From positions 1 through 42,854 of IMG/VR virus record IMGVR_UViG_3300010370_000003: a stretch of 42,854 bases of DNA. The stretch is one strand, 5' to 3'. Below are positions 1 through 42,854 of the stretch, piece after piece. Both the position numbers and the translations under genes were made by a program. Source of the DNA: a virus. Numbering within the stretch: position 1 is the first letter of the stretch; every line of letters begins with the position of its first letter. Under the pieces are notes generated by a model. It made no database searches, was not told the DNA's origin, and saw only the letters and a list, made by a program, of their open reading frames with translations.

Positions 1-123
1 CAACCGCAGCCGGGCGACCCATGTCACCCGCTCGCGCGCGGAGCTCACGCGCCTGCGGTGGCGTTTCAATGGCCTGTCGATGTCGCGGACCCTATCACGG
101 CGAACGAAGGCGCGACGTACAGC
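1..123. repeat. Terminal redundancy, left copy
   Basis: Bases 1-123 are identical to 42732-42854. The methyltransferase reading frame crosses the right copy and continues without break in the left copy. This shows that the ends are the overlap of a circular or circularly permuted molecule rather than two separate loci. It could be an assembly overlap or a real short terminal repeat; sequence alone cannot decide. The unique genome is 42,731 bp. Confidence 0.95.
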
Positions 124-21631: not shown

Positions 21632-21637
21632 GATGAA

Positions 21638-21671
21638 ACCTCCGTGGCACGCCGAAGCATACCACGGAGGT
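21638..21671 (-). promoter_or_regulatory. RNA hairpin sequestering the endonuclease ribosome site
   Basis: On the minus strand 15 bases pair with 15 bases around a C(UUCG)G tetraloop. The outer ten pairs are perfect (ACCTCCGTGG with CCACGGAGGT) and the inner five include G-U pairs. The 3' arm contains the GGAGG that serves ATG 21631, so the site is buried whenever the capsid transcript folds. Three U residues follow, too few for a strong terminator. Translation from early or processed transcripts could escape the block. Confidence 0.85.
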
Positions 21672-21684
21672 AACATCTAACCGG

Positions 21685-30189: not shown

Positions 30190-30608
30190 GCGATGGCCTT
30201 TGCGGCGCGCTGGCGGCTCTTTGGCGGTGCTACCTCCTCGCGCTCGACCTCGCGCACGGCTACGACGACGCGAGGCTCTGCACGGTCGATATGCGTCGCG
30301 ACGAGCAGCGTCACGACCTGCGAGTCGTCGAGGTAGAGCACGCCGTTCAGCGCGTCGAGGATGGTCTTGGCGACGTTGTCGAGGTCGCGCCGCCTCTCGT
30401 CGGGCAGATACGCGTCGATGTCCACGCGATAGCGCGATGCCTTCGACGGCAGCCACGGGCCGCGAGGACGCGACGCCATCGCCACGAGGCGCACCGTGCG
30501 CTGGTAGCTGCGCTGCTTCGTCGACGTGAAGCGGCGCGTGCCGACGCTGGCCGCGCGCTGCCACGGCACGACGGGGCCGGGCACGACGAAGCGGACGTCG
30601 AGGGTCAT
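30186..30608 (-). CDS. rusA: RusA-type Holliday junction resolvase
   Basis: A 140-residue endonuclease that cuts branched DNA. The family core is clear: PGPVVPWQRA, DAYLPDERRRDLDNVAKTILDALNGVLYLDDSQV and a basic C-terminus. Asp75 and Asp77 in RRDLDN with Asp94/95 in YLDDSQV correspond to the metal-binding acidic residues of RusA. It is ATGA-coupled to its neighbour. It would resolve recombination intermediates before packaging, acting on products of the RecT-like protein and SSB on the other strand. Confidence 0.92.
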   Translation of the reverse strand: MTLDVRFVVPGPVVPWQRAASVGTRRFTSTKQRSYQRTVRLVAMASRPRGPWLPSKASRYRVDIDAYLPDERRRDLDNVAKTILDALNGVLYLDDSQVVTLLVATHIDRAEPRVVVAVREVEREEVAPPKSRQRAAKAIA

Positions 30609-30862
30609 CGCGCCTTGCCCTGCATCGCGGACATCGCCTCCTGACGTAGATGCTCTTCGCGTCGAGCTCGAGCGTCTGCCTCGTACTGCTCGCGCGCTTC
30701 TCGCGACTGCTGCGACGTGCGCCCGAAGTGCTTGGCGTGCGTCGGGCTCATGCGCTTCTCAGCCGTGGCCGCTGCGGGGTTCTTCGCGATCTCGCACGCA
30801 CCGCACTTGCCCGCGACGAAGCCGGGATGTCTGCGGCACTGCGCTGGGAGTTGACCGGCCAT
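30605..30862 (-). CDS. Small Cys/His protein
   Basis: An 85-residue protein from ATG 30862 (TGATG). It has CRRHPGFVAGKCGACEIAKNP, a possible zinc site formed by three Cys and one His, followed by a basic, Arg/Glu-rich helical tail (REAREQYEADARARREEHLRQE). It could bind nucleic acid. It continues the series of zinc proteins just upstream in the operon. Family unknown. Confidence 0.65.
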   Translation of the reverse strand: MAGQLPAQCRRHPGFVAGKCGACEIAKNPAAATAEKRMSPTHAKHFGRTSQQSREAREQYEADARARREEHLRQEAMSAMQGKAR

Positions 30863-31140
30863 CAGTTGCTCGTCCTGTCTGGTGCGATGTCGAGTTGCAC
30901 CACAATCTGTTCGAGACGCATCGGGCACCAGCGCGGCGGCACCGTGGGCGGCTCAGTCGCGAGGTCGTCGCTGCCGACGATGAGCCGGTCGTCTTTGACG
31001 CGACAGGTGTGCTCGATGCGCAGCGCGTCGGCCGACTCACCGATGATGTCAGTGGCCGTAAACGGGCACGTCTGGCAGCCGCCGAAGATGATCAAGCGCA
31101 TCGCGGGCGCAAGCGTAGCAGCGTGCGAGCACGGCGTCAT
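30862..31140 (-). CDS. Small Cys-containing protein (phage unknown)
   Basis: A 92-residue protein from ATG 31140, overlapping the preceding stop by ATGA. Cys residues are spaced CQTC, then HTCRVKDDR, then PRWCPMRLEQ; similar small proteins with a PxWCPxR ending occur in many phages, without a known role that I can cite. It may form a zinc ribbon. A longer upstream frame is a shadow of the neighbouring zinc gene. Confidence 0.65.
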   Translation of the reverse strand: MTPCSHAATLAPAMRLIIFGGCQTCPFTATDIIGESADALRIEHTCRVKDDRLIVGSDDLATEPPTVPPRWCPMRLEQIVVQLDIAPDRTSN

Positions 31141-31481
31141 CGATGCCTCGCAGACGGCCAGCGCTTGCGGCCCTCGTTGTGCCTGACCTTCGCGACCGCC
31201 ACCGAGCACACCGGTCCGCAGTAGCGCACGCGGTGCTGGTATGTCGCGCGGATGAACAGCTCGCCGCAGTGGCCGCACTTTGTCGGCGCTTCCTTGCGAT
31301 ACGGGCCCGGCCACTTCTTCGTGCCGTCGCGCGGCATGATAGGCACGCCTGACTTGAAGAATGCTGCGTTGCAGTCGTCCTGCGCTGCAGGCCAGTGTGC
31401 CGCGACTCCGCAGCCGTAGCAACGGCGCAACGGGTCACCATCCAGCGTCAAGCCGTCGTCGTAGAAGACGTGCTGTCTCAT
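31137..31481 (-). CDS. Zinc-finger quartet member D
   Basis: A 114-residue protein, fourth of four tandem paralogues. The pattern is DGL...RRCYGCGVAAHWPAAQDDC, then KKWPGPYRKEAPTKCGHCGELF and YCGPVC, so two Cys clusters as in its neighbours. It starts at ATG 31481 (ATGA). The N-terminus differs most from the others (RQHVFYDDGLTLDGDP). See member A for the common plan. Function unknown; a nucleic-acid or protein-binding role is inferred. Confidence 0.75.
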   Translation of the reverse strand: MRQHVFYDDGLTLDGDPLRRCYGCGVAAHWPAAQDDCNAAFFKSGVPIMPRDGTKKWPGPYRKEAPTKCGHCGELFIRATYQHRVRYCGPVCSVAVAKVRHNEGRKRWPSARHR

Positions 31482-31861
31482 GCCTTGCGTGCCTTTGCTG
31501 CCAGTCGCGCGCGACGATTCGCGAGGCGTTTGTTCTCGGCCGCGCACGCCAACGAGCAGGTCTTGCCGAGTGTGTTCATGACTGGACGTCTAAACGCGCG
31601 CGAGCAGACAACGCACGTCGGCAATGTTCCCGCCGCATACGGTCCTGTCCACTGGCCGTCGTGTAGCGGTCCCTGCGCGACGTCGCCTGCTGGCTGGTGC
31701 AGCAGCACCGACGAGCACGACGACTCCGCAGCAGGCCAGTGTTGCAGAACGCCGCAGCGACGACAGCGACGCAGTTTACCGCCGATTTCGCGCACACCCT
31801 CTAACTCCCAGTCGTGCGCGAGATACACGCCGACGTCCTCGAGCTCGTCGTCGTCAATCAT
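31478..31861 (-). CDS. Zinc-finger quartet member C
   Basis: A 127-residue protein, third of four tandem paralogues; start ATG 31861 (ATGA overlap). N-terminal segment YLAHDWELEGVREIGGKLRRCRRCGVLQHWPAAESSC closely matches member B. The second cluster is CVVCSRAFRRP with CSLAC, followed by a basic helix (ENKRLANRRARLAAKARK). The basic tail suggests contact with DNA or RNA. Members B and C are the most similar pair. Confidence 0.78.
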   Translation of the reverse strand: MIDDDELEDVGVYLAHDWELEGVREIGGKLRRCRRCGVLQHWPAAESSCSSVLLHQPAGDVAQGPLHDGQWTGPYAAGTLPTCVVCSRAFRRPVMNTLGKTCSLACAAENKRLANRRARLAAKARKA

Positions 31862-32247
31862 CGCTGTGCTCGCTTGAGAGCACGCTTGATGCGTTGCCGC
31901 TCTGCGCGGCGACGCCGGTCTTTGGTGTGTTTGCAGGACGAGCTGCACGTCGACGCGTTGCCGTATCCGATTGGTCGCCGGAAAGCACGCTCGCAAATCA
32001 CACACGTCACCGTCGGATGCCGCGCAAACGGGCCGGGCCATTGGTCGGCGAATAGCGGTGGAGTGTCGTGGTCGATTTCAGGGCGGTGCTCGAGGACGGT
32101 GGCACAAGACTCTGCGCTCAGAGGCCAGTGACGCAGCGCGCCGCATCGGACGCATCGATGGCGTTCGCCGCCGACCTCGCGCACGCCGTCGTGCGTCCAG
32201 TCGTGCGCCAGGTACGCGATGCGCTCGTCGACGTCGTCATGCGCCAT
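31858..32247 (-). CDS. Zinc-finger quartet member B
   Basis: A 129-residue protein from ATG 32247, overlapping the preceding gene by 11 bases. First cluster: CVRCGALRHWPLSAESC; second: CVICERAFRRP with CSSSC; the segment DQWPGPF lies between. The tail is strongly basic (KDRRRRAERQRIKRALKRAQR). The N-terminus YLAHDWTHDGVREVGGERHRC is shared with member C. Probably a recent duplicate of C. Confidence 0.78.
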   Translation of the reverse strand: MAHDDVDERIAYLAHDWTHDGVREVGGERHRCVRCGALRHWPLSAESCATVLEHRPEIDHDTPPLFADQWPGPFARHPTVTCVICERAFRRPIGYGNASTCSSSCKHTKDRRRRAERQRIKRALKRAQR

Positions 32248-32605
32248 CGCGCTGTGCCTCGCGCTTGCGTGCGTAATGTGCAGCGACGTGGTCGCGATTG
32301 CGCTCGCGCTCATGCTCGCGCACGCAGACTGGCCCGCAGTAGGCGAGCGCTCGGTATCGCTTCGGCTGTCGAAAGCGCGTCTCACAGCGCTTGCACGTGC
32401 GCCACGCGTTGTGTTTGTACGGCCCCGGCCATCGCGTGATGTCCGCTGCGAGCGTCGTGCGTTCGTCTCCAGCGCGATGCGAAATCATCCACGGGCACGC
32501 CTCGCGCGCGCCAATCCAGTGCGCCAGCATCCCGCACTTCGCGCAGCGTCTACGAGGCTCGCCCCATTCAAGCACGCCGTCGATTTTCCACGTGTGCGGC
32601 TTCAT
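32237..32605 (-). CDS. Zinc-finger quartet member A
   Basis: A 122-residue protein from ATG 32605, coupled to the helicase gene by ATGA. It has Cys21-x2-Cys24 with a following HW and Cys37, then WPGPYKHN and a second cluster Cys71-x2-Cys74 and Cys90-x3-Cys94. The second cluster resembles a treble-clef finger. The C-terminus is basic with many Arg. The four neighbours repeat this plan, so the block arose by tandem duplication. No catalytic His or Asn of HNH nucleases is clearly placed, so I call it a zinc-binding protein only. Confidence 0.78.
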   Translation of the reverse strand: MKPHTWKIDGVLEWGEPRRRCAKCGMLAHWIGAREACPWMISHRAGDERTTLAADITRWPGPYKHNAWRTCKRCETRFRQPKRYRALAYCGPVCVREHERERNRDHVAAHYARKREAQRDGA

Positions 32606-33921
32606 CGACGTCCTCGTCGGTCGGTGTAGAGCGTTGAATCTTCGACGGCGTCTACCTCTTTGAGACTGCCGCCCGCGCCGCGCTTGAACTGGAACGTGAC
32701 GCCATTGCCGCCCGTCTTGCCCTTGACGATGCGGCCGTGGACGACAGCGCTGTCCTGCTCCTCTTTGCGCCACAGCACGATGACGAGTTCCGCGAGGTGC
32801 GCGAGGTCGCGTGAGTCGCGCAGGTCATGCTTGCCGGGTTCCTTGCCCTCGCCACGCTCGACGGTGAGTTGCGATGCGAGCCAGACCGGGATGCCGAGTC
32901 GCGACGCAGCGGCCTTGATGCGCGACGCAATGGTGCGCACCTCAAGACGCGTGTTCTCGGTCTTCGTGCTGCACGTGATTGCCTGTGCGTAGTCGACGAA
33001 GACGACGTCGCAGTGCATGACGCGCACGAGCCGCGCCATCTCGCGCACGACGTCGGAGTCAGTCGCGCCGGGGATGCACGACGTCACGAATCCCGCGGTC
33101 GGTCCCGCTTGCCGCGTTGTCGCGACGGCGTGCGCGATGCGCTCGTGGTCTTCGTAGCTGAGCTGCTTGGCGCGGATGGCGTGCCCGCTGACGCGCGAGA
33201 ATCGCGACAGCAGACGGTCCTCGATAAGCTGGCGCGGGTCTTCGATGCTGATGTATCCGAGCAGCAGCTTCTGCGCGCCGAGCTTCTCGCCCATCGTGAG
33301 CGCCAGCGAACTCTTGCCGACGTTGGTGTCTGCGCCGACGATGGCGAGGTCGCCGGGGCCGAGGCCCGCGATAGCCTCGTCGACGGCGCGGATACCTGTT
33401 GGCACCAGTCCAATCTGGTCAGTGCTGGTGGCGCGCAGGTAGGCTCGCTCGACGCCCTCCGCGAGCGAGAACGACTCGACGCTCGACGCTGCGTCGTCCT
33501 CGAGCGCGGCTGCGCAGTGAACGGCAGCGCCCGCGACGTTCTCGGTGCGCACGGCCGCGAGCGCGTCTAGCAGGTGCCGCTCCTTGCGACGCAGCCCTGC
33601 GAGCGCGAGCACGCGTGCGTGGACGACCGCGACGTCGACGAGCAGCGCGCCGCCAGTCGAGAGCGCGTACACGACGTCGGGACCGCCGAGCGCGTCGAGC
33701 TGCTGGCGCTGTCGGAGGTGCGAGACGACGGTGGCTTCGCTGACGCGCAGAGACGCGTCTAGCAGGCTGCGTACGGCGTTCGCGACGGCCTCGTGTAGCG
33801 GCACGGTCCAGGCGTCAGCGGGGCAGCCGTACGCGTCGGCAACGCGCGCATCGGCCAGCATCGCAGCGAGTAGGGCGCGCTCGGCGCTGACGTCGCAGAG
33901 CTGCTCAGCCTTCGAGGTCAC
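32602..33921 (-). CDS. Replicative DNA helicase, DnaB-like
   Basis: A 439-residue RecA-fold helicase. Residues 1-130 match the DnaB N-terminal domain (AERALLAAMLADARVADAY, FSL at 151). Walker A is GADTNVGKSS (196-205), the catalytic Glu is in YISIEDP (Glu227), and Walker B is VVFVDYAQ (306-313). A later motif (IPVWLASQLTVERGE, then DLRDSRDLAHLAELVIVLWRKE) matches H3/H4 regions. It uses GTG 33921 and overlaps the initiator gene by 17 bases. It should form a hexamer that opens phage forks. Confidence 0.9.
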   Translation of the reverse strand: MTSKAEQLCDVSAERALLAAMLADARVADAYGCPADAWTVPLHEAVANAVRSLLDASLRVSEATVVSHLRQRQQLDALGGPDVVYALSTGGALLVDVAVVHARVLALAGLRRKERHLLDALAAVRTENVAGAAVHCAAALEDDAASSVESFSLAEGVERAYLRATSTDQIGLVPTGIRAVDEAIAGLGPGDLAIVGADTNVGKSSLALTMGEKLGAQKLLLGYISIEDPRQLIEDRLLSRFSRVSGHAIRAKQLSYEDHERIAHAVATTRQAGPTAGFVTSCIPGATDSDVVREMARLVRVMHCDVVFVDYAQAITCSTKTENTRLEVRTIASRIKAAASRLGIPVWLASQLTVERGEGKEPGKHDLRDSRDLAHLAELVIVLWRKEEQDSAVVHGRIVKGKTGGNGVTFQFKRGAGGSLKEVDAVEDSTLYTDRRGRR

Positions 33922-34870
33922 GCCACTTCTCCTTCGGCTTCGGCGGTGGCGGCAACTGACCAGCCCAGTCGTCCAGCCACAAATGCGGCTGCGTGCTCTC
34001 GTTGCGGTTCTCGCGGTGCTTGACCCACTGCTCGAAAGCTAGCGCGCACAGGTCGTCGGGCGCTAGGTCGAGTTTCGCAGCCATCTCGCGAATCTCCTCG
34101 ACGACCTCATCGGCACGAGCAGCCATCGCGAATCGCTGCGTCGGTACGCTCCACGGCCTGCCGCGCACTTCGCCGACGACACGCTCAAGCGCTCGACGGT
34201 GGAACGAAGAGTCAGCAACCAAAGGCAATTGGGTCGTGTTCGCTGGTACAGGTCGGAGGTCGGAGGTACAGGTCAGGCGCGAGGGTATCGCGAGTGCCTC
34301 GCCAACCTCTCGCGGAACACTCGCGAGTGTCTCGCGAGCAGGCGCGGTGTCTTGGTTTTGGTTTTGGTATGGTACGGAATGGAATGGTATGGAATGGGTT
34401 GACGAACGCTCGAAGACTTGCACTCGCGAACTTCGCGCGTCGTTCGTGCGAACGTGCTCGATGCTGTTCGCGCGAACATTTCCAGATTCATCAATAGATT
34501 CGCGGCCCGTCTCTTCCCGGCGTGCCCGCTGATTAGCGCGCAACCGTCGCATTCTGTCGGCTGATTCGCGTCGCGTTTGGTCAACGTCTGCACGCGCAGC
34601 CTGTCGTTCGGTCCACTGATGGAAGCGGAAACCAGTCTCGGTTTCCTCCCAAAGTCGCACGCGAACCAGCTCCTGCGCGGCCTTCGCATGATGCCGGATG
34701 CCGAGCCGCGCGACCTTGGACGCGCTGATCTCACCATCGGTCAGGTGCTTTCCACACCACGATCCAGCCAGCGTCCAGAGCGCGATCGCGTCGCTCGCGT
34801 GCTTGCCCGTAAGCAACGCCTCGACCTTCGGATGGTCGTGGAAGCCGTCGTCAACTCTGAACCAGACCAT
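33905..34870 (-). CDS. Replication initiator-like protein
   Basis: A 321-residue protein. The N-terminus (VWFRVDDGFHDHPKVEALLTG, then LWTLAGSWCGKHLTDGEISASKVARLGI) is the HTH type common to phage replication initiators or organisers. The middle is a low-complexity stretch rich in Ser, His, Gln and Asn coded by the A/T- and repeat-rich DNA at 34245-34400. The C-terminus (AARADEVVEEIREMAAKLDLAPDDL, ALAFEQWVKHRENR) is helical and could load helicase. Start ATG 34870, 26 bases from the operator at 34896. It is the first gene of the replication block and overlaps the helicase. Confidence 0.75.
   Translation of the reverse strand: MVWFRVDDGFHDHPKVEALLTGKHASDAIALWTLAGSWCGKHLTDGEISASKVARLGIRHHAKAAQELVRVRLWEETETGFRFHQWTERQAARADVDQTRRESADRMRRLRANQRARREETGRESIDESGNVRANSIEHVRTNDARSSRVQVFERSSTHSIPFHSVPYQNQNQDTAPARETLASVPREVGEALAIPSRLTCTSDLRPVPANTTQLPLVADSSFHRRALERVVGEVRGRPWSVPTQRFAMAARADEVVEEIREMAAKLDLAPDDLCALAFEQWVKHRENRNESTQPHLWLDDWAGQLPPPPKPKEKWRDLEG
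34245..34400. other. Candidate replication origin inside the initiator gene
   Basis: Several repeat types concentrate here. GGTACAGGTC occurs at 34245 and 34265 (20-base spacing). TCGCGAG-type words occur four times between 34280 and 34340, including perfect palindromes ACTCGCGAGT (34319-34328) and CTCGCGAG (34331-34338). Next comes a run of GGTTTT and GGAATGG-type repeats (34352-34400), less GC-rich than the surroundings. Iterons followed by an easily melted tract inside an initiator gene is the lambda O layout. That analogy is inferred. Confidence 0.5.
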
Positions 34871-34895
34871 CAGTGCATCCGCCCTTCAAAGGCGC

Positions 34896-34905
34896 GCGCT
34901 AGCAC
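34896..34905. promoter_or_regulatory. Operator-like palindrome copy
   Basis: GCGCTAGCAC, one base from the perfect palindrome GTGCTAGCAC, lies 26 bases upstream of the initiator start. The neighbouring minus-strand sequence shows no strong -35/-10 pair. It should be read with the copies at 35996, 37101, 37116 and 37193. Confidence 0.55.
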
Positions 34906-34967
34906 TGGACGGACCACGTGAAATGAGATATGAAACCGCATCGGGAAACCTCCATTTTCTCGGTCAC

Positions 34968-34996
34968 GGGCTCGGGCGTCTCACCGCCGCGAGCCC
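34968..34996. other. 11-bp hairpin in the gap before the initiator gene
   Basis: GGGCTCG (34968-34974) pairs with CGAGCCC (34990-34996), and GGCG pairs with CGCC inside, around a 6-base loop and a single-base bulge. No clear T-tract follows on either strand (ATTTCTATTG on plus). It may end part of the early transcript or protect its 3' end. The rest of 34871-35041 holds only the operator at 34896. Confidence 0.6.
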
Positions 34997-35041
34997 ATTT
35001 CTATTGAGCCGCATCAACGCTACGCGACGATGTGCAGTGCG

Positions 35042-35461
35042 TCAACGGACGTCCGCACTCTTTGTGCGATTTGATGGCCGCAGCGCAACACGTGCGAGCG
35101 CACCCATGGTGTCATCGAGCTCGGCAATCTGCGCGAGGTCGGCAATCGGGATGCGCCGCATCTCTGCGATGAGACGCCGCCATGTCGGGCGCGGCTGGTC
35201 GAGCGCGTCACGCCACTCGCCATCACGCACCGCGAGCGCGACGTCGCACTCCGCACGAGCGCGCATCAGGTCGGCCTGCACCTCGTCGATGTGCCGCGTG
35301 CGGTCGCTGACGTCGACGGCAACGAGCTTGCGCCACGCAGCCTCGAGACGCGCATCTTCGGGCTGGCCGTACCACGGCGGCAGCGAGTCGCCGCTCTCGC
35401 ACGCCGCGACGTCGGCGCGTATCAGCGCCCATATCCGCGCGCGCTGGACTGAGTCGATCAT
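35042..35461 (-). CDS. Early protein of unknown function
   Basis: A 139-residue protein starting at ATG 35461 (ATGA with its neighbour); a longer frame upstream is a shadow. It is helical and acidic/basic mixed, with SLPPWYGQPEDARLEAAWRKLVAV in the first half and ADLAQIAELDDTMGALARVAL near the end. No Cys clusters, membrane helix or known motif. Cotranscribed with a winged-helix protein, so it may be an early host-takeover or regulatory protein. Confidence 0.7.
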   Translation of the reverse strand: MIDSVQRARIWALIRADVAACESGDSLPPWYGQPEDARLEAAWRKLVAVDVSDRTRHIDEVQADLMRARAECDVALAVRDGEWRDALDQPRPTWRRLIAEMRRIPIADLAQIAELDDTMGALARVALRPSNRTKSADVR

Positions 35462-35859
35462 CGCGCGCCTTTGAGCGCGAGCCATGCCGCAACGCGCTGC
35501 AGCACCTCGTCGTCCTCGTGCGCCCGCTCGCGTAGGAACGCAGCCGCCGCGCGGAGGTCGCTCGGAGATGGCACCATCGGCCGCACGTGCGGGCCTGTGG
35601 TGCGCTGCGTATAGGCGACCCACTGCTCTGCGAAGCGTCCCGACACGCGGCACTGGCGACGTCCCTGCGGCTGCGCGTAGCCGTGACTCCGCAGCTCGGA
35701 CAAACGCTTGTGCGCGGACACGCTGCGCAAGCGCTCGTCGACCTCCCGACCCGTGAGTGGCCCTTCTGCGCGCAGCAGTTCAAGCACGACCTCACGTGCC
35801 CGCGTGAGTTCACCAGACTCTACAGCTTCCAGATACGCATCAATCGATGTCTGTTTCAT
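35458..35859 (-). CDS. Winged-helix DNA-binding protein
   Basis: A 133-residue protein from ATG 35859 with GAGGAG upstream. Residues about 1-60 form a winged-helix pattern: IDAYLEAVESGELTRAREVVLELLRAEGPLTGREVDERL, then KRLSELRSHGYAQP as wing and recognition helix. The remainder is helical. It is probably a transcription regulator. Its leader (35860-35995) has the long inverted repeat described separately, and an operator copy lies at 35996. It may be under both transcriptional and RNA-level control. Confidence 0.7.
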   Translation of the reverse strand: MKQTSIDAYLEAVESGELTRAREVVLELLRAEGPLTGREVDERLRSVSAHKRLSELRSHGYAQPQGRRQCRVSGRFAEQWVAYTQRTTGPHVRPMVPSPSDLRAAAAFLRERAHEDDEVLQRVAAWLALKGAR

Positions 35860-35895
35860 CGTCCCGTCTCCTCGACCCTTGCAGGGGTCATCAAT

Positions 35896-35990
35896 CGAAC
35901 CAGCGGAGCCGCCTGCCATTGCACCGACGCAACGGGGGGGAAAGTAGTCGACGCGGCAGGCGGCTCACCGCTGCAACGGCTGCTGGTTCG
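35896..35990 (-). promoter_or_regulatory. Long inverted-repeat leader of the winged-helix gene
   Basis: Left arm CGAACCAGC (35896-35904) pairs with GCTGGTTCG (35982-35990), and GAGCCGCCTGCC (35906-35917) pairs perfectly with GGCAGGCGGCTC (35955-35966). The intervening 37 bases include a run of seven G. A further small hairpin (GACCC/GGGTC) lies just before the ribosome site GAGGAG of 35859. The region is noncoding on both strands. It looks like a structured mRNA leader or a protein-binding site. Confidence 0.7.
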
Positions 35991-35995
35991 CGCGA

Positions 35996-36005
35996 GTGCT
36001 AGCAC
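35996..36005. promoter_or_regulatory. Operator-like perfect palindrome
   Basis: GTGCTAGCAC, extended to the 12-base palindrome AGTGCTAGCACT (35995-36006). It sits in the gap between the hydrolase-like gene (ends at 36022) and the structured leader of the winged-helix gene. It is identical to the copy in the promoter at 37187-37215. Confidence 0.65.
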
Positions 36006-36021
36006 TTCACGCGCGCCAGCG

Positions 36022-36540
36022 TCAAGGCAGCCGAAAGAACGCGTTGGCCGTCGCGCCACAGTCGACGGGCTGCCAGCCGAGGCGCAGCGCTCGCGCGGTG
36101 TCGTGGCCACGGTCGCCCCAGTGGTCAGCGTCGCATCGTCTAGGCCCGCCACGACGCGCAGCGACGAGCGCGCGCTGGTAGCTGTCGAGCAGCCGCCGCG
36201 TGCTGTCTGGCGCAGGTAGCGCACGGATGCGGGCCTGCCGCGTCGTCGGCGTAGCAGCGCGATGGACGGCGCAATACGCGCGCGCCATGCGGCCGACGCT
36301 TACGTGCGCGCGTCGAGCTCGACGCTCGAGCACGTCGAGGATGGCGTCCCAGTCGGTGCCCGGCACGTTCTCCGCGACGAGGCAGCGCGCGACGTCCTCG
36401 AGGTCGCCGGGCTCTGCGACGGGCGCGGGACGTGGCTGCGCCTGTAGCGGCGACGAGCACGAGCATGAGTCGAGGCCGAGCGCGACGATGATGCTGGCAG
36501 TGATCGCGCCCATCACGACGTCGTCGAGGAAGCGGCTCAC
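36022..36540 (-). CDS. Exported protein, possible peptidoglycan hydrolase
   Basis: A 172-residue protein starting at GTG 36540 (GTGA overlap). The N-terminus has a hydrophobic segment (VVMGAITASIIVALGLDSCSCSS) that could be a signal anchor or lipoprotein signal. The rest shows VARCLVAENVPGTDWDAILDVLERRA and a C-terminal DADHWGD, GWQPVDCGATANAFF. The two parts are reminiscent of SleB/transglycosylase-like wall hydrolases, with Glu57 as a possible catalytic residue. That match is from memory and weak. A wall enzyme among early genes would be unusual. Confidence 0.55.
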   Translation of the reverse strand: MSRFLDDVVMGAITASIIVALGLDSCSCSSPLQAQPRPAPVAEPGDLEDVARCLVAENVPGTDWDAILDVLERRARRAHVSVGRMARAYCAVHRAATPTTRQARIRALPAPDSTRRLLDSYQRALVAARRGGPRRCDADHWGDRGHDTARALRLGWQPVDCGATANAFFRLP

Positions 36541-36776
36541 GCGCTGCCGCCTTTCGCGTTGGTGCGCGGGTCGCCGGCATCCTCAGCAGGCAGCGCTGCG
36601 GGCTGCTGGCCGTCATCAGGTAGCGCCACGTTGTCGGAGTCACGCGTCGCGAGCAGCGCGCAGATTGCAGCATCGCGCAGCGCGGCGATGGCCTGCGCAC
36701 CGCCACGACGAGCGACGGCGATGTGCCGCGACGCGAGGTCGAGCAGCAGAGAGCGGCGTGTGCGGCGGTCCATCAT
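36537..36776 (-). CDS. Small early protein of unknown function
   Basis: A 79-residue protein, start ATG 36776 (ATGA overlap with the preceding gene; GGAGA upstream). The first half is a basic/hydrophobic helix (RTRRSLLLDLASRHIAVARRGGAQAIAALRDAAICALLATRD). The second half is acidic and disordered. No family recognised. It could bind DNA or a host protein. Confidence 0.6.
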   Translation of the reverse strand: MMDRRTRRSLLLDLASRHIAVARRGGAQAIAALRDAAICALLATRDSDNVALPDDGQQPAALPAEDAGDPRTNAKGGSA

Positions 36777-37093
36777 TCGTCTCCGCTGCACGCCGCTTCC
36801 GCTGCGCGCTGGTGGCCGTCCTCGCGGTCGAGCTGCTGCACGTTGCGCGGGCGTCCGCGACCACGCTTGACGGGCGCGACGGCGGCGATGCCGGGCTTGT
36901 GCTCGGCGGCGACGGGCTTGTGCTGGGCGACTGCGGCGACGTGCTTGCGCTTGCCGCGCTGCGATTCAATGAGCGCGACGAGCCATGCGGAGACGCTGGT
37001 TTTGCCGCTGCCCGCGAGCAGCTGCGCGAGGGCGTACGTCTCGACTGGGACTCGTGCGTACAGAACTGGGAGCAAGGCAGATGGTTTCGTCAT
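36773..37093 (-). CDS. RHH plus AT-hook DNA-binding protein, candidate regulator
   Basis: A 106-residue protein from ATG 37093; a longer start at 37168 would place coding sequence over the two palindrome copies and lacks a ribosome site. Residues about 10-48 (VLYARVPVETYALAQLLAGSG, then TSVSAWLVALIESQR) fit a ribbon-helix-helix fold: a short strand, then two helices. Near residue 75-85 is KRGRGRPRN, a classic AT-hook. The combination predicts a small dimeric repressor or nucleoid-type regulator. Two palindrome copies immediately upstream (37101-37125) suggest autoregulation. Confidence 0.65.
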   Translation of the reverse strand: MTKPSALLPVLYARVPVETYALAQLLAGSGKTSVSAWLVALIESQRGKRKHVAAVAQHKPVAAEHKPGIAAVAPVKRGRGRPRNVQQLDREDGHQRAAEAACSGDE

Positions 37094-37100
37094 GGCGCGA

Positions 37101-37125
37101 GCGCTAGCACGGCCCGCGCTAGCAC
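37101..37125. promoter_or_regulatory. Paired operator-like palindromes
   Basis: GCGCTAGCAC occurs twice, at 37101-37110 and 37116-37125, 15 bases apart in the same orientation. The pair lies 8 bases upstream of the RHH gene start on the minus strand, in the leader or promoter of that gene. A regulator bound here could block or activate the leftward early genes. The minus-strand promoter itself is not clear to me. Confidence 0.6.
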
Positions 37126-37186
37126 GCGAGCGAAAAGTGCGAGAATCGTCGAGGAAGAAAATCGACACGGCACCCGAAAATAAAGT

Positions 37187-37215
37187 TTGACGGTGCTAGC
37201 ACGCGGGCGTATATA
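37187..37215 (+). promoter_or_regulatory. Sigma70-like rightward promoter with embedded operator
   Basis: TTGACG (37187-37192), a 17-base spacer and TATATA (37210-37215) form a good sigma70 promoter for the plus-strand operon starting at 37260. The perfect palindrome GTGCTAGCAC fills the first ten bases of the spacer (37193-37202), so a bound protein would compete with RNA polymerase. This is the main divergent control region of the genome. Confidence 0.75.
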
Positions 37216-37259
37216 TCAGGAGTCGACGGCGCGGGGCCGCGACGAAACAAGGTGACGAC

Positions 37260-37442
37260 ATGACCAAATCTTGCGACGACATGACGTGCAGCGTTTGCAA
37301 TCCATCATCCGAATGGGTTTGCCGCCGCTGTTTCGACCGGGCCGAGGACGCGCATCTTGAATACCTCGACCAACAATCAGCGAAGTTGACGTCACGCATC
37401 AACGTCGGCATCAACAAAATCAACGTCGAGGTGCCGTCGTGA
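37260..37442 (+). CDS. Small CxxC zinc-knuckle protein
   Basis: A 60-residue protein, first of the rightward operon, behind AAGGTGA. Residues about 9-25 hold TCSVCNPSSEWVCRRCF, a CxxC-x8-CxxC zinc ribbon. The same module opens the protein at 41288-41743 (TCDVCTSSSDWVCRRCY). The tail (TSRINVGINKINVEV) is beta-type. It is early, tiny and probably binds a nucleic acid or an RNA polymerase subunit; this is inference. Confidence 0.75.
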   Translation: MTKSCDDMTCSVCNPSSEWVCRRCFDRAEDAHLEYLDQQSAKLTSRINVGINKINVEVPS

Positions 37443-37567
37443 GCCGCCGTCCCGCTCACCCGCACGTCGGCCTCCACGCCGCCCTCGTCGCGCTTGCGCA
37501 GGGATGCCAGTGCGCCGCCTGCCAGCAGCTCCGCGAGCGCGTGCTGCGCGCTGGGAGGCCGTCGTGA
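37439..37567 (+). CDS. Tiny Cys-rich protein
   Basis: A 42-residue frame from GTG 37439 (GTGA with the preceding stop) to TGA 37567 (TGATG with the next ATG). It contains GCQCAACQQLRERVLRAG, a tight CxCxxC cluster on an amphipathic helix. Precise overlap at both ends is the main support. Family unknown. Confidence 0.55.
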   Translation: MSRRPAHPHVGLHAALVALAQGCQCAACQQLRERVLRAGRPS

Positions 37568-38046
37568 TGGGCCGCTACTGGGTGCGCGTCCGCGCGGAAT
37601 ACGTCGTGCCCGTATTGGCGACCTCGCGCGAGGATGCGCTCAGCCTTGACGCTGGCGACCTCGTCGACGACATGACGCCCGAGCGGCTGTATTCTGCCGA
37701 GCTGCTCAGCGCGTCGCCCGACAGCGAGCGCGCGAGCATGGGCGCGGTCGCAGAAAGCATCCTCGACGCCGAGCAGCGCGCCGAGCACGAGCTTGACCTC
37801 GCGATGCTCGACGTCGGCGCGGCGGTGCGCGAGCATTTTCAGCACGTGCGCGGCATCCCGCGCGAGACGCTCGAGGCGCACGTCGAGGATGTCATCCGCG
37901 GCATCGCGGACGAGATTGCGCGCGAGCATATCGCGGAGGGTGACGACGACTGGCAGGCACGGCGCGCGGCCATCGTCGCGGGTATCAACAAGCGGGCAGC
38001 ATCATCGGCGAAGGCATACACAAAGTGGAGGACTGACAATGAGTGA
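37567..38046 (+). CDS. Early protein of unknown function
   Basis: A 159-residue, mostly helical protein. The N-terminus (GRYWVRVRAEYVVPVLATSREDAL) resembles the beta-strand start of small DNA-binding or regulatory proteins. The rest is charged helix with many Ala, Glu and Arg (EDVIRGIADEIAREHIAEGDDDW). Start ATG 37567 by TGATG. The end overlaps the Gp157-like gene by 8 bases. Confidence 0.7.
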   Translation: MGRYWVRVRAEYVVPVLATSREDALSLDAGDLVDDMTPERLYSAELLSASPDSERASMGAVAESILDAEQRAEHELDLAMLDVGAAVREHFQHVRGIPRETLEAHVEDVIRGIADEIAREHIAEGDDDWQARRAAIVAGINKRAASSAKAYTKWRTDNE

Positions 38047-38548
38047 CACGACGACCAAGACGGGACTGCGGCTTTACGAACTTGCACCGGCATACGCGTA
38101 CCTGATCGACGCGCTCGACGAGGACGGCGATGCCAGCGACGGGCACGCGCACCTCGACGCGCTGAGCGATGCCATCGACCAGAAGGCGGCCAGCATCGCG
38201 CACGTGCTCGCGCAACTCGACGCCGAGGCCGAGGCTTTGCGCGCGGAGGAGAAGCGACTGGCGGCGCGGCGGCAGTCTCGCGAGCGGCGCGCGGAGTCGC
38301 TGCGTGACTATCTGCGCATGAGCCTCGATGCGGCGGGCGTCGCGAAAATCAAGAGCGCGACGCACACCATCAGCGTCGGCGACGGCCCGCAGCGCGTCGT
38401 CGTCGAGGACGAGGGCAGCGTGCCCGCCGAATACCTCCGCACGAAAATTGAGGTTGACAAGCGCAGCATCCTTGAGGCAATGAAGGCGCACGGCGAATGC
38501 GTGCCTGGGACGCGCATCGAGCGGACGCGCGTGTTGCGCATCAAGTGA
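38039..38548 (+). CDS. Gp157-family protein
   Basis: A 169-residue protein from ATG 38039 with GGAG 8 bases upstream. Family signs: LRLYELAPAYAYLIDAL at the N-terminus, a long coiled coil (LDAEAEALRAEEKRLAARRQSRERRAESL) and a C-terminal domain with YLRMSLDAAGVAKIKSATHTISV and KIEVDKRSILEAMKAHGECVPG. Members of this siphovirus family are encoded beside recombination genes, and one was linked to phage resistance in Streptococcus; the molecular role is not settled. It is followed at once by the RecT-like gene, in keeping. Confidence 0.82.
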   Translation: MSDTTTKTGLRLYELAPAYAYLIDALDEDGDASDGHAHLDALSDAIDQKAASIAHVLAQLDAEAEALRAEEKRLAARRQSRERRAESLRDYLRMSLDAAGVAKIKSATHTISVGDGPQRVVVEDEGSVPAEYLRTKIEVDKRSILEAMKAHGECVPGTRIERTRVLRIK

Positions 38549-38574
38549 ATCCCCTATCCAAACAAGGTGAAGAC

Positions 38575-39462
38575 ATGAGCGATATCATCAAGACCACCAG
38601 CGGCCTCGACATGGTCGCGAGTCTGTCGGACGTGCTGCGACTGGCCGACACGCTGGCGCAGGCGCGCGGCGGTTTCATCCCGTCGCACTTCCAGAACTCG
38701 GCGCAGGTTGCGGCGGTCATCCTTGCCGGGCGCGAGCTCGGCGTCGGGCCGATGGCGAGCTTGCGCAGCTTCTACCTCGTCGGCGGCAAGCTCGGCATGG
38801 ACGCCAGCTTCGTGTCGGGCCGTATGCTCGCGCATGGCGTCGGCCTCGAGTGGCTGCGCGACGACGACGAGTGCGCGTCGGTGCGTCTCTCGCGCGCGGG
38901 GATGCCGCCGTACACGTCGACGTTCTCGCGTGCCGACGCCGAGCGTGCGGGCCTCTGGAACACGGCAACGTGGCGCAAGTATCCGCGCGCGATGCTGCGT
39001 GCGAGGGCCATCACGGCAGGCGCTCGCGCGTATGCCGCGGACTGTTTCGCTGGCAGCGTCTACACGCCCGACGAACTGCGCAGCGGCAACGTCGCCGACG
39101 ACCGCGACGAGCAGCCCGCGCAGCGCGTCCAGCAGCCCGCAGAGCGCGTCGAGGCTGCGGCACCGCCTGCCGTCATCGAGGCGCATGGCGAGCCCGCTAC
39201 GCAGCCCGCAGCGGCCGACGATGTGGCCGGACGAATCGTCGCGGCGTACGACGTGGCGTCGACCGACGTCGAGATTGCGCAGCTGCGCACGGCGCTCGTC
39301 GCAGCGCACTGGCAGCAACTCTCGCGCGACGACCGTGCTCGCGTGACGTCGGCAGCGCACCGTGCGCGGCAGCGCGTCGAGGCCGCACGACAGGGACTGA
39401 TTGCGCAGCTCGAGGCTGAGCGGCGCGCGGACATCGCAGAAGAGGAGGATGACGACCGATGA
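38575..39462 (+). CDS. RecT-like single-strand annealing protein
   Basis: A 295-residue protein from ATG 38575 behind CAAACAAGGTGA. The N-terminal two thirds resemble the RecT/Bet family as found in GC-rich phages: DVLRLADTLAQARGGFIP, AAVILAGRELGVGPMASLRSFYLVGGKLGMDASFV, GVGLEWLRDD, then WRKYPRAMLRARAITAGARAYA. The C-terminal third is Pro/Ala-rich linker and coiled coil. It anneals complementary strands for recombination-dependent replication with the SSB next to it. No exonuclease gene is seen nearby. Confidence 0.72.
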   Translation: MSDIIKTTSGLDMVASLSDVLRLADTLAQARGGFIPSHFQNSAQVAAVILAGRELGVGPMASLRSFYLVGGKLGMDASFVSGRMLAHGVGLEWLRDDDECASVRLSRAGMPPYTSTFSRADAERAGLWNTATWRKYPRAMLRARAITAGARAYAADCFAGSVYTPDELRSGNVADDRDEQPAQRVQQPAERVEAAAPPAVIEAHGEPATQPAAADDVAGRIVAAYDVASTDVEIAQLRTALVAAHWQQLSRDDRARVTSAAHRARQRVEAARQGLIAQLEAERRADIAEEEDDDR

Positions 39463-39881
39463 GCGCAGACCAGAACACGATTCACTTGACGGGCCGCGTC
39501 GTGCGTGACGCTGAGATTCGCGAGACGAAGAGTGGCGAGCAAATCGCCAACGTTTCCATCGCGGTCAATGGCTACAAGCGCGACGACGAGGCGACGTTCT
39601 TCACGTTGACCCTGTTCGCGAAGAAGGCGGCCGTCGCGCAGTATCTCAAGAAGGGCACGCGCGTCGCCGTCAACGGGCGGCTCAAGCAGCGCAAGTACCC
39701 AAAGAAGGACGGCACCGAAGGCGTTTCGCTTGAGGTCGCCGTCAACGACTTGACCTTGCTCGGCGGCAAGAACGAGCGCGACACGAGCGACGGCCCGCTG
39801 ATCGAGCACAAGCGCGGCGCGCGCCCTGGCAACGACTGGTCGAGCGACGCCGCAAACGACACCGACGACATTCCGTTCTGA
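39459..39881 (+). CDS. ssb: Single-stranded DNA-binding protein
   Basis: A 140-residue OB-fold protein. NTIHLTGRVVRDAEIRETKSGEQIANVSIAVNGYKR and TFFTLTLFAKKAAVAQYLKKGTRVAVNGRL are the family core; the C-terminus ends in the acidic DDIPF tip that recruits partner proteins. It is ATGA-coupled to the RecT-like gene. It coats single strands in replication and recombination. Confidence 0.95.
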   Translation: MSADQNTIHLTGRVVRDAEIRETKSGEQIANVSIAVNGYKRDDEATFFTLTLFAKKAAVAQYLKKGTRVAVNGRLKQRKYPKKDGTEGVSLEVAVNDLTLLGGKNERDTSDGPLIEHKRGARPGNDWSSDAANDTDDIPF

Positions 39882-39909
39882 CAATCAACGCAAACAAGGT
39901 GAGGCGAAC

Positions 39910-40302
39910 ATGAGCACGATGGAAGAGGCACGACTGAGCGAGATGTATGACCAGCTCTGCGAAGCGCTGGACAAGGTGGCCGATGCGCTCCACGCGAACG
40001 GCCAGCCCAACGACATGGTGATCGAGCGTGCGCGCGAGATGACGCTGCGCGCGTTTCGCGCAGAGGGCGAGCGCGACAGCGCCAAGCGGCTGTGCGACAT
40101 CATGCGCGACTACCACGACCGCGAGGTGCGCGAGCTGCGTGCGGAGCTCGACGTCGTGCGGTCGCGGCTGATGACGGTGACGTCGGAGCGCGACACGCTG
40201 CGCAGGTCCGAGGACGCCGAGCGCGCGTATCGCGAGCGGCAGAACGCGCAGACGCTGGCCGAGGTCAAGGCGCTCGGCGCAAAACTGCGGGGTGAGCCGT
40301 GA
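39910..40302 (+). CDS. Coiled-coil protein
   Basis: A 130-residue protein behind CAAACAAGGTGA. Almost the whole length is charged heptad sequence (EDAERAYRERQNAQTLAEVKALGAKL), predicting a long coiled coil; a short start with AHALHANGQP-type residues precedes it. Function unknown, possibly an assembly or regulatory adaptor. Its stop overlaps the next GTG. Confidence 0.7.
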   Translation: MSTMEEARLSEMYDQLCEALDKVADALHANGQPNDMVIERAREMTLRAFRAEGERDSAKRLCDIMRDYHDREVRELRAELDVVRSRLMTVTSERDTLRRSEDAERAYRERQNAQTLAEVKALGAKLRGEP

Positions 40303-40676
40303 GCCACAAAGACGGGCGCGTCGTGCTGTCTGCGTGGGTCGAGCCAGTGCTGCGGGACTATGCGCGCGAGGCGGCACGAGCCGCTGGCGTCCAGTTCTCG
40401 CTATGGGTCGAGGGCGCGGTGCAGCGTGCCGTCGCAGAGCAATCGGCGGCGAAGGCGCTGCGGATATATCCAGTGCACGCGTCGCATCTCACCGACGTCG
40501 TGACGCTGCTAGAGGACGAGCGCGACAAGCTGCGCGCAGAGCGCCGTCAGCTTCGCGCGCGACTCGTCGAGTGCCTGCCGTTCGTCGGCGTGTGCCCGCT
40601 GGAACCTAATCGAATCCAGTTGATGCATCTCGTGCGCGACCTGGCGGACGACACGCTCGAAGAGGTGAAACCGTGA
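40299..40676 (+). CDS. Unknown protein with RHH-like N-terminus
   Basis: A 125-residue protein from GTG 40299 (GTGA overlap). The start (VLSAWVEPVLRDYAREAARAAGVQFSLWVEGAVQRAVAEQ) has the strand-helix-helix look of a ribbon-helix-helix protein. A coiled-coil middle (LEDERDKLRAERRQLRARLVECL) and a short C-terminal helix follow. It could be a transcription regulator. Family not recognised. Confidence 0.65.
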   Translation: MSHKDGRVVLSAWVEPVLRDYAREAARAAGVQFSLWVEGAVQRAVAEQSAAKALRIYPVHASHLTDVVTLLEDERDKLRAERRQLRARLVECLPFVGVCPLEPNRIQLMHLVRDLADDTLEEVKP

Positions 40677-41284
40677 CGCGCGAAGAGCTTGATGCCGTAC
40701 GCAATCACATCAGCAATCTGCCGACCGTAGGCGCGATGTATGCGCCTGTCTTGGTCGAGTGGGTATCCGTGCTGTTGCGCCAGCGGGACGAGGTTACGGC
40801 GCAAAGAGACAACGCCGTTGACGCGAGCAAGGAAGGCGCGTGGATGGCGCGCGCGCTAGATGCGGAGCGCGAGCGCGACGAGGCGCGGCGTGACCTTGGC
40901 GAGATCCTCGCCGTGATCCACCGAGACGGCGGCCATCGCACGGGTGAGCGCGGGCTCTCGCAGTCTGTGGCTGACGCGCACGCGACTTGGGCTGCGGTGG
41001 TACGCGAGCGCGAAGAGGCGCAGGCTGAGCTTGCATTTCTGCGAAAAGAATATGGCGAAGCCGAGTCCAGTACTCTCACTCGCGATGCGCTGGAACTGAA
41101 GCTCCAAGTGATGGAGCAGCAGCGCGACGAGGAGCGCAAGCATCATGACGCCCTGCGAGCCGTGTGGGTTGCCGCAAGCGACTGGCTCAATCACCTCGCG
41201 CAAAATCGCGTTCATTACAGCGACGACGGCTTTGGCAATTTGCTGGATGCGGTTTACGCGGCCGATGCGCGGATGACGGGGTGA
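40673..41284 (+). CDS. Coiled-coil protein of unknown function
   Basis: A 203-residue protein from GTG 40673. The N-terminal 35 residues form a globular helical segment (LDAVRNHISNLPTVGAMYAPVLVEWVSVLL). The middle is a charged coiled coil with many Arg and Glu, and a C-terminal helix (ALRAVWVAASDWLNHLAQ) is followed by a short tail. Partner or function unknown. It belongs to the set of coiled-coil proteins between SSB and the methyltransferase. Confidence 0.7.
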   Translation: MTREELDAVRNHISNLPTVGAMYAPVLVEWVSVLLRQRDEVTAQRDNAVDASKEGAWMARALDAERERDEARRDLGEILAVIHRDGGHRTGERGLSQSVADAHATWAAVVREREEAQAELAFLRKEYGEAESSTLTRDALELKLQVMEQQRDEERKHHDALRAVWVAASDWLNHLAQNRVHYSDDGFGNLLDAVYAADARMTG

Positions 41285-41287
41285 GCC

Positions 41288-41743
41288 GTGACTGACGCCA
41301 TCACGTGCGACGTCTGCACCTCATCGTCCGACTGGGTGTGCCGTCGCTGCTACGACGCGCTGTCGCGCGCGGAGAACGCGACGCGTGAGCAATACCTCGC
41401 CGCCGAGTTGCGCGCGAGAGGGCGCACCGACGCTAGCGACGCGGAGGACCACGCGCTGCGACGCGCGCTAACCGGCGTAGTCAACGACGCGATCATCGTG
41501 CTGAAGGCCCGCGTGAAACTGCTGGCCGTCGAGGAAGGCCGCAGGTCCAAGGTGTACCGCACGGCAGTCGCGCGTCTCGACGAGCTGCGCGACGCGCACA
41601 ACAGGCTGCAATTGTTGCAGGTCGACTACTCGCACGCGCGGATGCTGCTGCACGGATGGGTGCAGGCGCGCAAGACTGGCGACGTCGGTGACGAAGAGTT
41701 CTTCCTCTCGCGAGCGCGAGAGTATTTCGAGGTGCGAGAATGA
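41288..41743 (+). CDS. Zinc-knuckle and coiled-coil protein, paralogue of 37260-37442
   Basis: A 151-residue protein from GTG 41288. The first 30 residues (TCDVCTSSSDWVCRRCYDALSRAENA) repeat the CxxC-x8-CxxC module of the first rightward gene. The rest is a helical, partly coiled-coil domain (LRRALTGVVNDAIIVLKARVKLL). This suggests domain fusion or duplication of the small zinc protein. Function unknown; it is ATGA-coupled to the next gene. Confidence 0.72.
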   Translation: MTDAITCDVCTSSSDWVCRRCYDALSRAENATREQYLAAELRARGRTDASDAEDHALRRALTGVVNDAIIVLKARVKLLAVEEGRRSKVYRTAVARLDELRDAHNRLQLLQVDYSHARMLLHGWVQARKTGDVGDEEFFLSRAREYFEVRE

Positions 41744-41958
41744 CGACGCTGTACCAAGGCACCTCACCACTACCCGTCATCGAGGTCGGGATGCGCCTGC
41801 GCGACGGCTGGGGCTGCGTCTGGCGCGTGGTCGAGGTGCTCGACGGCGGGCTGACTGTCGGGCTGCAATCGGCGCGCGAGGGCTCGCGATTGTGGCTTGA
41901 CGGCGCGAGCGTGCGTGTGTGGGGCTTGGCTGAGGACTGGACGACGTGCGCTATCTGA
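41740..41958 (+). CDS. Small beta-rich protein before the methyltransferase
   Basis: A 72-residue protein with a beta pattern (IEVGMRLRDGWGCVWRVVEVLDGGLTVGLQ) and several Trp, like a small SH3-type fold. The end overlaps the methyltransferase start by 13 bases, so translation is linked. It may help or modulate the enzyme. Family unknown. Confidence 0.7.
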   Translation: MTTLYQGTSPLPVIEVGMRLRDGWGCVWRVVEVLDGGLTVGLQSAREGSRLWLDGASVRVWGLAEDWTTCAI

Positions 41959-42854
41959 GCGTGTGCAGCGGCATCGAGGCCGCAAGCGTGGCGTGGCACT
42001 CGATGGGATGGGAGCCTGTCGCGTTCAGTGAGATTGACCCGTTCGCGAGTGCGGTGCTCGCGGCGAGATTTCCTGACGTGCCGAATCTCGGAACGATGGA
42101 GAACTACCGTGAGTGGAACATCGAACAAGGTGCAATTGACGTTCTCGTGGGTGGAACTCCCTGCCAATCGTTCAGCGTCGCAGGACTCAGACGCGGACTT
42201 GATGACCCACGTGGGAACCTCGCGCTCGTCTATCTTGGACTGGTTGACCGATTCCGGCCTCGCTACATTGTCTGGGAAAACGTGCCCGGTGTCTTGTCAT
42301 CCAGCGGAGGACGGGACTTTGGTGCCTTCATCGGGGCGCTGGCGCAGCTCGGGTATGGGTTCGCCTGGCGAGTGCTGGACGCTCAGTGGTGCCGAGTGGA
42401 CAGCCACCCTCGTGCCGTCCCACAGCGACGGAGGCGTGTGTTCGTTGTCGGATGTGCTGGAGGCGACTGGAGACGTGCCGCCTCGGTTTTACTTGAGCCC
42501 GAAGGCGTCGCTGGGGATCCTCCGACGCGCCGAACGTCGCGGGAAGGCACTCCCCGAAGCCCTGCGGCTGGCGCTCGAGACGGTAACATCGCGGACGTGA
42601 GCCCGACCGTCGCCGCGAAGTGGAGCAAGGGCACGGGCGGGCCCGCCGGCGACGAGGTGCAGAACCTTGTGCCGGACGTGGAGCCCACGCCCTTCGACAC
42701 GACGCAGATCACGCACCCCGCTAACCGCTCGCAACCGCAGCCGGGCGACCCATGTCACCCGCTCGCGCGCGGAGCTCACGCGCCTGCGGTGGCGTTTCAA
42801 TGGCCTGTCGATGTCGCGGACCCTATCACGGCGAACGAAGGCGCGACGTACAGC
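41946..42854 (+). CDS. Cytosine-5 DNA methyltransferase, N-terminal part (continues at base 1)
   Basis: This is a Dcm-type enzyme that transfers a methyl group from AdoMet to C5 of cytosine in DNA. It starts at GTG 41946, overlapping the end of the preceding gene by 13 bases. Visible motifs are motif I around CSGIEAASVAW (residues 7-17), the acidic FSEID (27-31), the catalytic motif IV GGTPCQSFS with Cys73, ENVPGV (motif VI) and QRRRRVFVVG (motif VIII). The target-recognition segment follows and runs off the window edge. Joined to 1-360 it gives 381 residues, normal for the family. It probably protects phage DNA from host restriction; the recognition sequence cannot be read from here. No partner endonuclease is visible, so it looks like an orphan enzyme. 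Confidence 0.95.
   Translation, partial: MRYLSVCSGIEAASVAWHSMGWEPVAFSEIDPFASAVLAARFPDVPNLGTMENYREWNIEQGAIDVLVGGTPCQSFSVAGLRRGLDDPRGNLALVYLGLVDRFRPRYIVWENVPGVLSSSGGRDFGAFIGALAQLGYGFAWRVLDAQWCRVDSHPRAVPQRRRRVFVVGCAGGDWRRAASVLLEPEGVAGDPPTRRTSREGTPRSPAAGARDGNIADVSPTVAAKWSKGTGGPAGDEVQNLVPDVEPTPFDTTQITHPANRSQPQPGDPCHPLARGAHAPAVAFQWPVDVADPITANEGATYS
42732..42854. repeat. Terminal redundancy, right copy
   Basis: This is the identical copy of bases 1-123. It lies inside the methyltransferase gene, in its variable target-recognition part. That is an unlikely place for a biological terminus, so an assembly overlap of a circular map is the simplest reading. Confidence 0.95.

Follow-up and report, generated by a model that had tools for sequence, protein, structure and literature searches.

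A putative early phage promoter with an operator in its spacer, probably controlled by a divergently encoded Arc-like repressor

In phage P22, the operator of Arc lies between the -10 and -35 elements of the promoter Pant; Arc binds this 21-bp site as two dimers and is itself encoded within the operon that it represses. The locus described here resembles Arc/Pant in that a phage-encoded protein, probably of the ribbon-helix-helix (RHH) type, is predicted to turn down early phage genes, and Arc was the only named relative recovered by our PDB profile search. However, here we find a 10-bp palindrome, a divergent gene for the predicted repressor, which has two additional putative operators where it begins and whose product carries an AT-hook-like tail, and a promoter cassette that is repeated ahead of exchangeable genes. 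A second precedent is provided by the Aca repressors and acr-aca promoters, where an inverted repeat in the core early promoter is bound by a small phage repressor (PMC9410906). A small phage repressor and an inverted repeat in an early core promoter are predicted here as well, but Aca proteins are helix-turn-helix (HTH) proteins usually encoded downstream in the same operon, whereas the present one is RHH-like and divergent; it matched no HTH family, and no known anti-CRISPR was identified at the locus. In archaeal viruses, e.g., SIRV2, one regulatory sequence precedes many variable small early genes, with shut-off by a viral repressor having been proposed (PMC11065993). Our locus shares with these the repetition of a promoter or regulatory sequence before variable early genes, but they employ archaeal TATA/BRE promoters and the winged-HTH protein Aca8, in contrast to the bacterial-type promoter, spacer operator, and 5' hairpin seen here. 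The start-associated sequences of cluster K mycobacteriophages form a conserved element that precedes some of the phage genes and is accompanied by inverted repeats in roughly half of the cases (PMC3203893); unlike the full promoter-operator-leader unit examined here, those elements lie at translation starts, consist of 13-bp asymmetric repeats, and have no known function. The underlying kind of control is a known one, whereas the combination of an RHH-like protein bearing an AT-hook-like tail, a spacer operator, a 5' hairpin, and a recombining cassette is new. No literature linking RHH proteins with AT-hooks in phages was found.

The DNA analyzed (hereafter, the window) is the whole 42,854-nucleotide stretch of an IMG/VR virus record. 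No near phage was found in GenBank, and searches of bacterial genomes turned up neither a prophage nor a close relative; the terminase is at most about 34% identical to those of the best-listed phages, whose hosts are many. We propose that the locus is probably an early promoter that is shut off by an autoregulating Arc-like repressor encoded divergently. The anatomy, the conservation, the constraint on spacing, the recurrence of the cassette, and the change of the operator at both sites in one lineage are read from the sequence; that the promoter is active, where transcription starts, and that the protein binds DNA and represses at the proposed time are what we infer. The features, in the order of their coordinates, are as follows.

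34896-34905 (strand not applicable): GCGCTAGCAC as a putative auxiliary operator, lying 26 bp ahead of the replication-initiation gene (33905-34870)
35996-36005 (strand not applicable): GTGCTAGCAC as a putative auxiliary operator, ahead of the leftward gene group that comes next
36773-37093, minus strand: predicted Arc-like RHH repressor, 106 aa (PDB profile, structure model, Foldseek)
36839-36868, minus strand: AT-hook-like motif KRGRGRPRN in the C-terminal tail of the repressor (scored at 16 bits by PF02178, whose cut-off is 17.4)
37101-37110 (strand not applicable): putative operator O1, GCGCTAGCAC, 15 bp from O2, its end 7 bp before the repressor ATG
37116-37125 (strand not applicable): putative operator O2, GCGCTAGCAC, likewise ahead of the repressor gene
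37154-37162, plus strand: distal A/T patch GAAGAAAAT, located 5' of the -35, where it may act as an UP element or as a site for the AT-hook
37177-37184, plus strand: proximal A/T patch AAAATAAA, immediately 5' of the -35; present in group A cassettes, varied in most of group B
37187-37192, plus strand: -35 hexamer TTGACG; TTGAC is shared by 12 of 13 cassettes, the exception having TTGCG
37193-37202 (strand not applicable): putative operator OR, GTGCTAGCAC, in the spacer; conserved in relatives, replaced in L076 and L077
37210-37215, plus strand: -10 hexamer TATATA; TAGATA, TACATA, TATACA, or TATAAA in relatives
37220-37223, plus strand: predicted transcription start, placed by distance from the -10 only
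37222-37243, plus strand: hairpin with the pentaloop GCGGG, where the early mRNA is predicted to begin; 13 cassettes
37249-37254, plus strand: Shine-Dalgarno sequence AAGGTG, in all six group A cassettes
37260-37442, plus strand: first early gene, encoding a 60-aa CxxC..CxxC protein; unrelated genes in its place in relatives

In the mechanism that we envisage, the host polymerase, using the sigma-70-like promoter, would fire rightward upon infection, yielding a transcript with a short leader (the 5' hairpin and the Shine-Dalgarno sequence), an exchangeable early gene, and then the recombination genes. Meanwhile, the divergent gene 36773-37093 would produce an RHH repressor of the Arc/Mnt kind. 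As this protein accumulates, it would bind GTGCTAGCAC in the spacer, where the bound dimer would exclude RNA polymerase, and also O1 and O2 ahead of its own ATG, so that early transcription would go down and the repressor would limit itself.

The original prediction, which had read TTGACG, 17 bases, and TATATA with a palindrome in the first ten spacer bases, at the divergence of the two transcription units, is borne out letter for letter: TTGACG is directly followed by GTGCTAGCAC, then GCGGGCG and TATATA, within the gap between the first leftward ATG (37093) and the first rightward ATG (37260). It had also been called a strong promoter; as a sigma-70 match alone, however, it is unremarkable. 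The site matches the sigma-70 consensus at 9 of 12 positions, a score for which about 8.6 sites are expected in a window of 42.9 kb and 66% GC; raw consensus scoring is accordingly uninformative and was rejected as promoter evidence. By contrast, the pattern TTGACN-16..18-TANANA, itself derived from the relatives, occurs once in the window against 0.017 expected. The -35 and a spacer in the 16-18 bp range (TTGACG, 17 bp) are of the sigma-70 type here as well as in the relatives' cassettes. The terminal T of the -10 is missing from TATATA, the relatives mostly having TAnAnA with a T one base later, and the promoter is therefore described as sigma-70-like; a stricter scan demanding this T found no site in positions 30000-42854. 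GTGCTAGCAC is a perfect 10-bp palindrome, which a random 17-mer of the same composition would contain with a chance of about 0.012. The window has 11 copies of it with at most one mismatch, where 2.0 +/- 1.4 would be expected, and five of these are clustered in 34.9-37.2 kb. The core GCTAGC alone is not enriched (13 observed, 11.5 expected). What carries the interpretation of this site as a promoter with an operator in its spacer, where the match to the consensus is at chance level, is the constant 17-bp spacing, the recurrence of the cassette, the operator change at two sites, and the adjacency of an Arc-like gene.

The spacing could be followed across two groups of related contigs. Close relatives of the 36773-37093 protein, at about 70-76% identity, are encoded in three IMG/VR contigs (L003, L004, and L005) that together with the window make up group A. 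The DnaB helicase led to additional contigs, two of which encode a more distant repressor (38-43%), and the L014 repressor retrieved further contigs of its type (L075-L081); group B comprises L014, L016, and L076-L081. The gene layout is common to both groups. Throughout group A, the intergenic region aligns, with TTGAC, the palindrome, TA[T/G]ATA, the Shine-Dalgarno sequence, and both repressor-proximal operators all in register. The 17-bp spacer is found in 13 cassettes from eight contigs with a regular expression that preset this length. A census over whole contigs fixed only TTGAC and TANANA, so that -10 positions 1, 2, and 4, being preset, carry no weight; it returned 11 matches with a 17-bp spacer in nine related contigs, every one a known cassette with a CTAG- or TAG-centered spacer site, although not all are independent because L078 and L081 are near-identical here. 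The same pattern with an 18-bp spacer was absent from the nine contigs, and with a 16-bp spacer, from seven. The operator itself shifts by 1-2 bp while the spacer remains at 17: in the window, it abuts the -35, whereas in the relatives it begins one base further on, the length being preserved because a second indel compensates. A point against the interpretation is that, at the divergent promoter of group B, the spacer holds only a half-palindrome, CGATATAGCAC, with three of five pairs.

When the -35/palindrome pair was sought in all viral contigs, 56 stretches were found that, besides the known relatives, are mostly apparent coincidences; a pattern that included the flanking GCG matched five contigs, all unrelated, and was dropped. 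In L058, an unrelated low-GC phage (10865-11368; also L048), TTGACG and GTGCTAGCAC within a 17-bp spacer are followed by TATACT, likely forming a real promoter; at a distance of 66 bp, a protein reading like RHH is encoded divergently. The same operator and layout may thus have been adopted independently.

The assignment of the repressor comes from profile and structure comparisons. A nine-sequence profile searched against the PDB up to E 10 retrieved just two entries, Arc at E 0.14 and the V. cholerae RHH-type protein 1y9b at E 0.13, both below threshold but aligned residue by residue, and for a single group B sequence, Arc was the only match. The structure model, of moderate confidence (pLDDT 71), has helices at 17-29 and 34-44, with the strand not formed in the monomer, and its weak Foldseek matches (E>3) are nearly all of the RHH type (Arc, NikA, MazE9, NikR, and MatP). 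Neither Pfam, where no RHH family matched, nor PHROGs nor NCBIfam gave a confident family. V10, Y12, and R14 of the repressor align with Q9, N11, and R13, the contact residues of Arc. Altogether, the protein probably belongs to the RHH family and is most like P22 Arc. In its tail, KRGRGRPR is invariant in group A, at least one such motif is present in group B, and RGRPR is invariant across the family.

Beyond what had been noticed originally, the analysis revealed the two operators before the repressor gene, the 5' hairpin, and the repeated character of the cassette. At least one CTAG-centered site lies no more than 60 bp from the repressor ATG in all relatives examined, which, by the presence of the site, places a candidate operator at the repressor's own promoter. 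Within O1, the bases TGCTA at -16 could be the extended -10 of a promoter that yields a leaderless leftward transcript; this motif, 16-17 bases ahead of the repressor ATG, is retained in L077 despite the changed operator. Given this retention and the lack of a Shine-Dalgarno sequence before the repressor gene in nine sequences, it is plausible that an extended -10, overlapped by O1, gives rise to a leaderless mRNA, a reading that we tentatively prefer to a promoter in the A/T patches. The latter was set aside because the patches are copied along with second cassettes that lack a leftward repressor gene; for the distal patch, a GAAAAT patch recurs in the L003 and L004 second cassettes, neither of which adjoins a divergent repressor gene.

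Both auxiliary sites precede genes of the replication region. The one at 35996-36005 is kept in L003 (4657) and L005 (2052) and absent from L004, and the one at 34896-34905 is kept in L003 (5758) only. Adjoining the former is a long inverted repeat at 35893-35991 (GAACCAGC...GCCGCCTGCC / GGCAGGCGGC...GCTGGTTC), with a folding energy as RNA of -56.4 kcal/mol (z -5.0), possibly an origin, an attenuator, or a structured RNA.

The operator has changed in L076 and L077. In these, the promoter spacer contains CCTGTCTAGACAGG in place of GTGCTAGCAC, and the repressor-proximal site is TCTAGACA, also given as CTATCTAGACAG, so that the center is TCTAGA at both places; GCTAGC is absent from the 10-kb loci of both contigs. 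Compared to L080, the RHH domain differs in the N-terminal arm (MRKPPSVQ vs MPDTPSSK) and in one other residue. The specificity of Arc and Mnt resides in N-terminal residues (Knight and Sauer 1989, as cited in PMC3325190). The joint change of the operator and the arm suggests a link between repressor specificity and the spacer palindrome; because L076 and L077 are identical here, the operator change amounts to one event, which is suggestive but not proof.

A divergent repressor gene with several operators, whose sequence varies by lineage as immunity groups do, would also befit an immunity region, and the same architecture could serve a CI-like lysogeny repressor that keeps the promoter shut in a prophage. 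We consider this unlikely. No tyrosine or serine integrase domain (PF00589, PF00239) was found in the window and five related contigs of 29-49 kb, which may be incomplete, making a lysogeny switch less likely; a bacterial genome collection contains no relative of the repressor; and the repressor is the first gene of a leftward unit with the replication genes, with the structural genes on the same strand, rather than a gene silent to the lytic programme. Still less probable is that the palindrome is bound by another protein, be it a host repressor or the product of 40299-40676 (plus strand), which reads like RHH (VVLSAWVEP-helix-SLWVEGAVQ), sits in the promoter-driven unit as a Cro would, and has relatives in L003 and L004. 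Apart from a weak CcdA match, Pfam and PDB searches lent that product no RHH support, no homologue was found in group B contigs even though GCTAGC-centered operators are kept there, and the operators adjoin the 36773-37093 gene in all relatives. That the palindrome is a modification/restriction-type or chance sequence devoid of regulatory role, as the expected frequency of GCTAGC and the status of GCTAGC and TCTAGA as restriction sites might hint, is very improbable, given that the longer 10-bp form is enriched, clustered, and held in place between -35 and -10 by several cassettes, and that, in one lineage, it has changed both at the promoter and at the repressor gene.

Control by the divergently encoded Arc-like repressor remains the preferred interpretation. 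The promoter itself is one copy of a recurring cassette that is found ahead of different small genes. The shared unit consists of the A/T patches, the -35, the operator, the -10, the hairpin leader, the Shine-Dalgarno sequence, and the ATG, and second cassettes precede other genes in L003, L004, L014, L078, and L080. The leader pentaloop is mostly NNGGG across cassettes. In a hand alignment, the loop-closing and third pairs of the hairpin change on both sides (C-G to U-A; G-C to C-G or A-U); its single-sequence folding energy is not significant. In the window, AAGGTGA precedes the ATG at 37260, and Pfam gave no family for the gene downstream of the promoter. Its product and that of 41288-41743 (plus strand) are similar small proteins with CxxC...VCRRC in the early region, probably paralogues.

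Nucleotide similarity between the window and L003 breaks off at 37266, a few bases into the first gene, and is back at 37423. Between the same flanks, L003 and L004 possess two cassettes, and the window, one. Over 45 bases from 75 bp upstream of the -35, the window matches the repressor-linked cassettes of group A at 76-87% and the second cassette of L003 at 24%; its first 25 leader bases, conversely, are identical to those of the L003 second cassette and only 56% like those of the repressor-linked ones. The window cassette is, then, likely a recombinant of two cassettes from which the gene in between was lost. Cargo families also trade positions: an HNH endonuclease gene stands behind the second cassette in L004 but behind the first in L014, and another family shows the reverse. 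Elsewhere in the window, a homing-endonuclease-like gene (20810-21676, minus strand; GIY-YIG/HNH PHROG matches) lies beside the major head protein gene.

A bolder scenario, which we offer tentatively and consider doubtful as a whole, is that of a two-armed repressor, with the RHH domain in the major groove of the spacer palindrome and the AT-hook tail in the minor groove of the upstream A/T patches, running a plug-in cassette that is copied and recombined as a unit, the cargo of which may be anti-defence, and the operator code of which is switched via the N-terminal arm. If so, any gene landing behind the cassette would at once acquire the early on/off timing of the phage. The observations suggest that the repeated promoter cassettes serve as recombination points for the swapping of early genes. 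The lineage with the changed operator offers a natural experiment on how RHH repressors shift DNA specificity. Moreover, the combination of TTGACN, a CTAG-centered palindrome, a 17-bp spacer, TANANA, a 5' hairpin, and a Shine-Dalgarno sequence provides a searchable signature by which early genes in an uncultured phage group can be located, which would be useful in finding anti-defence candidates.
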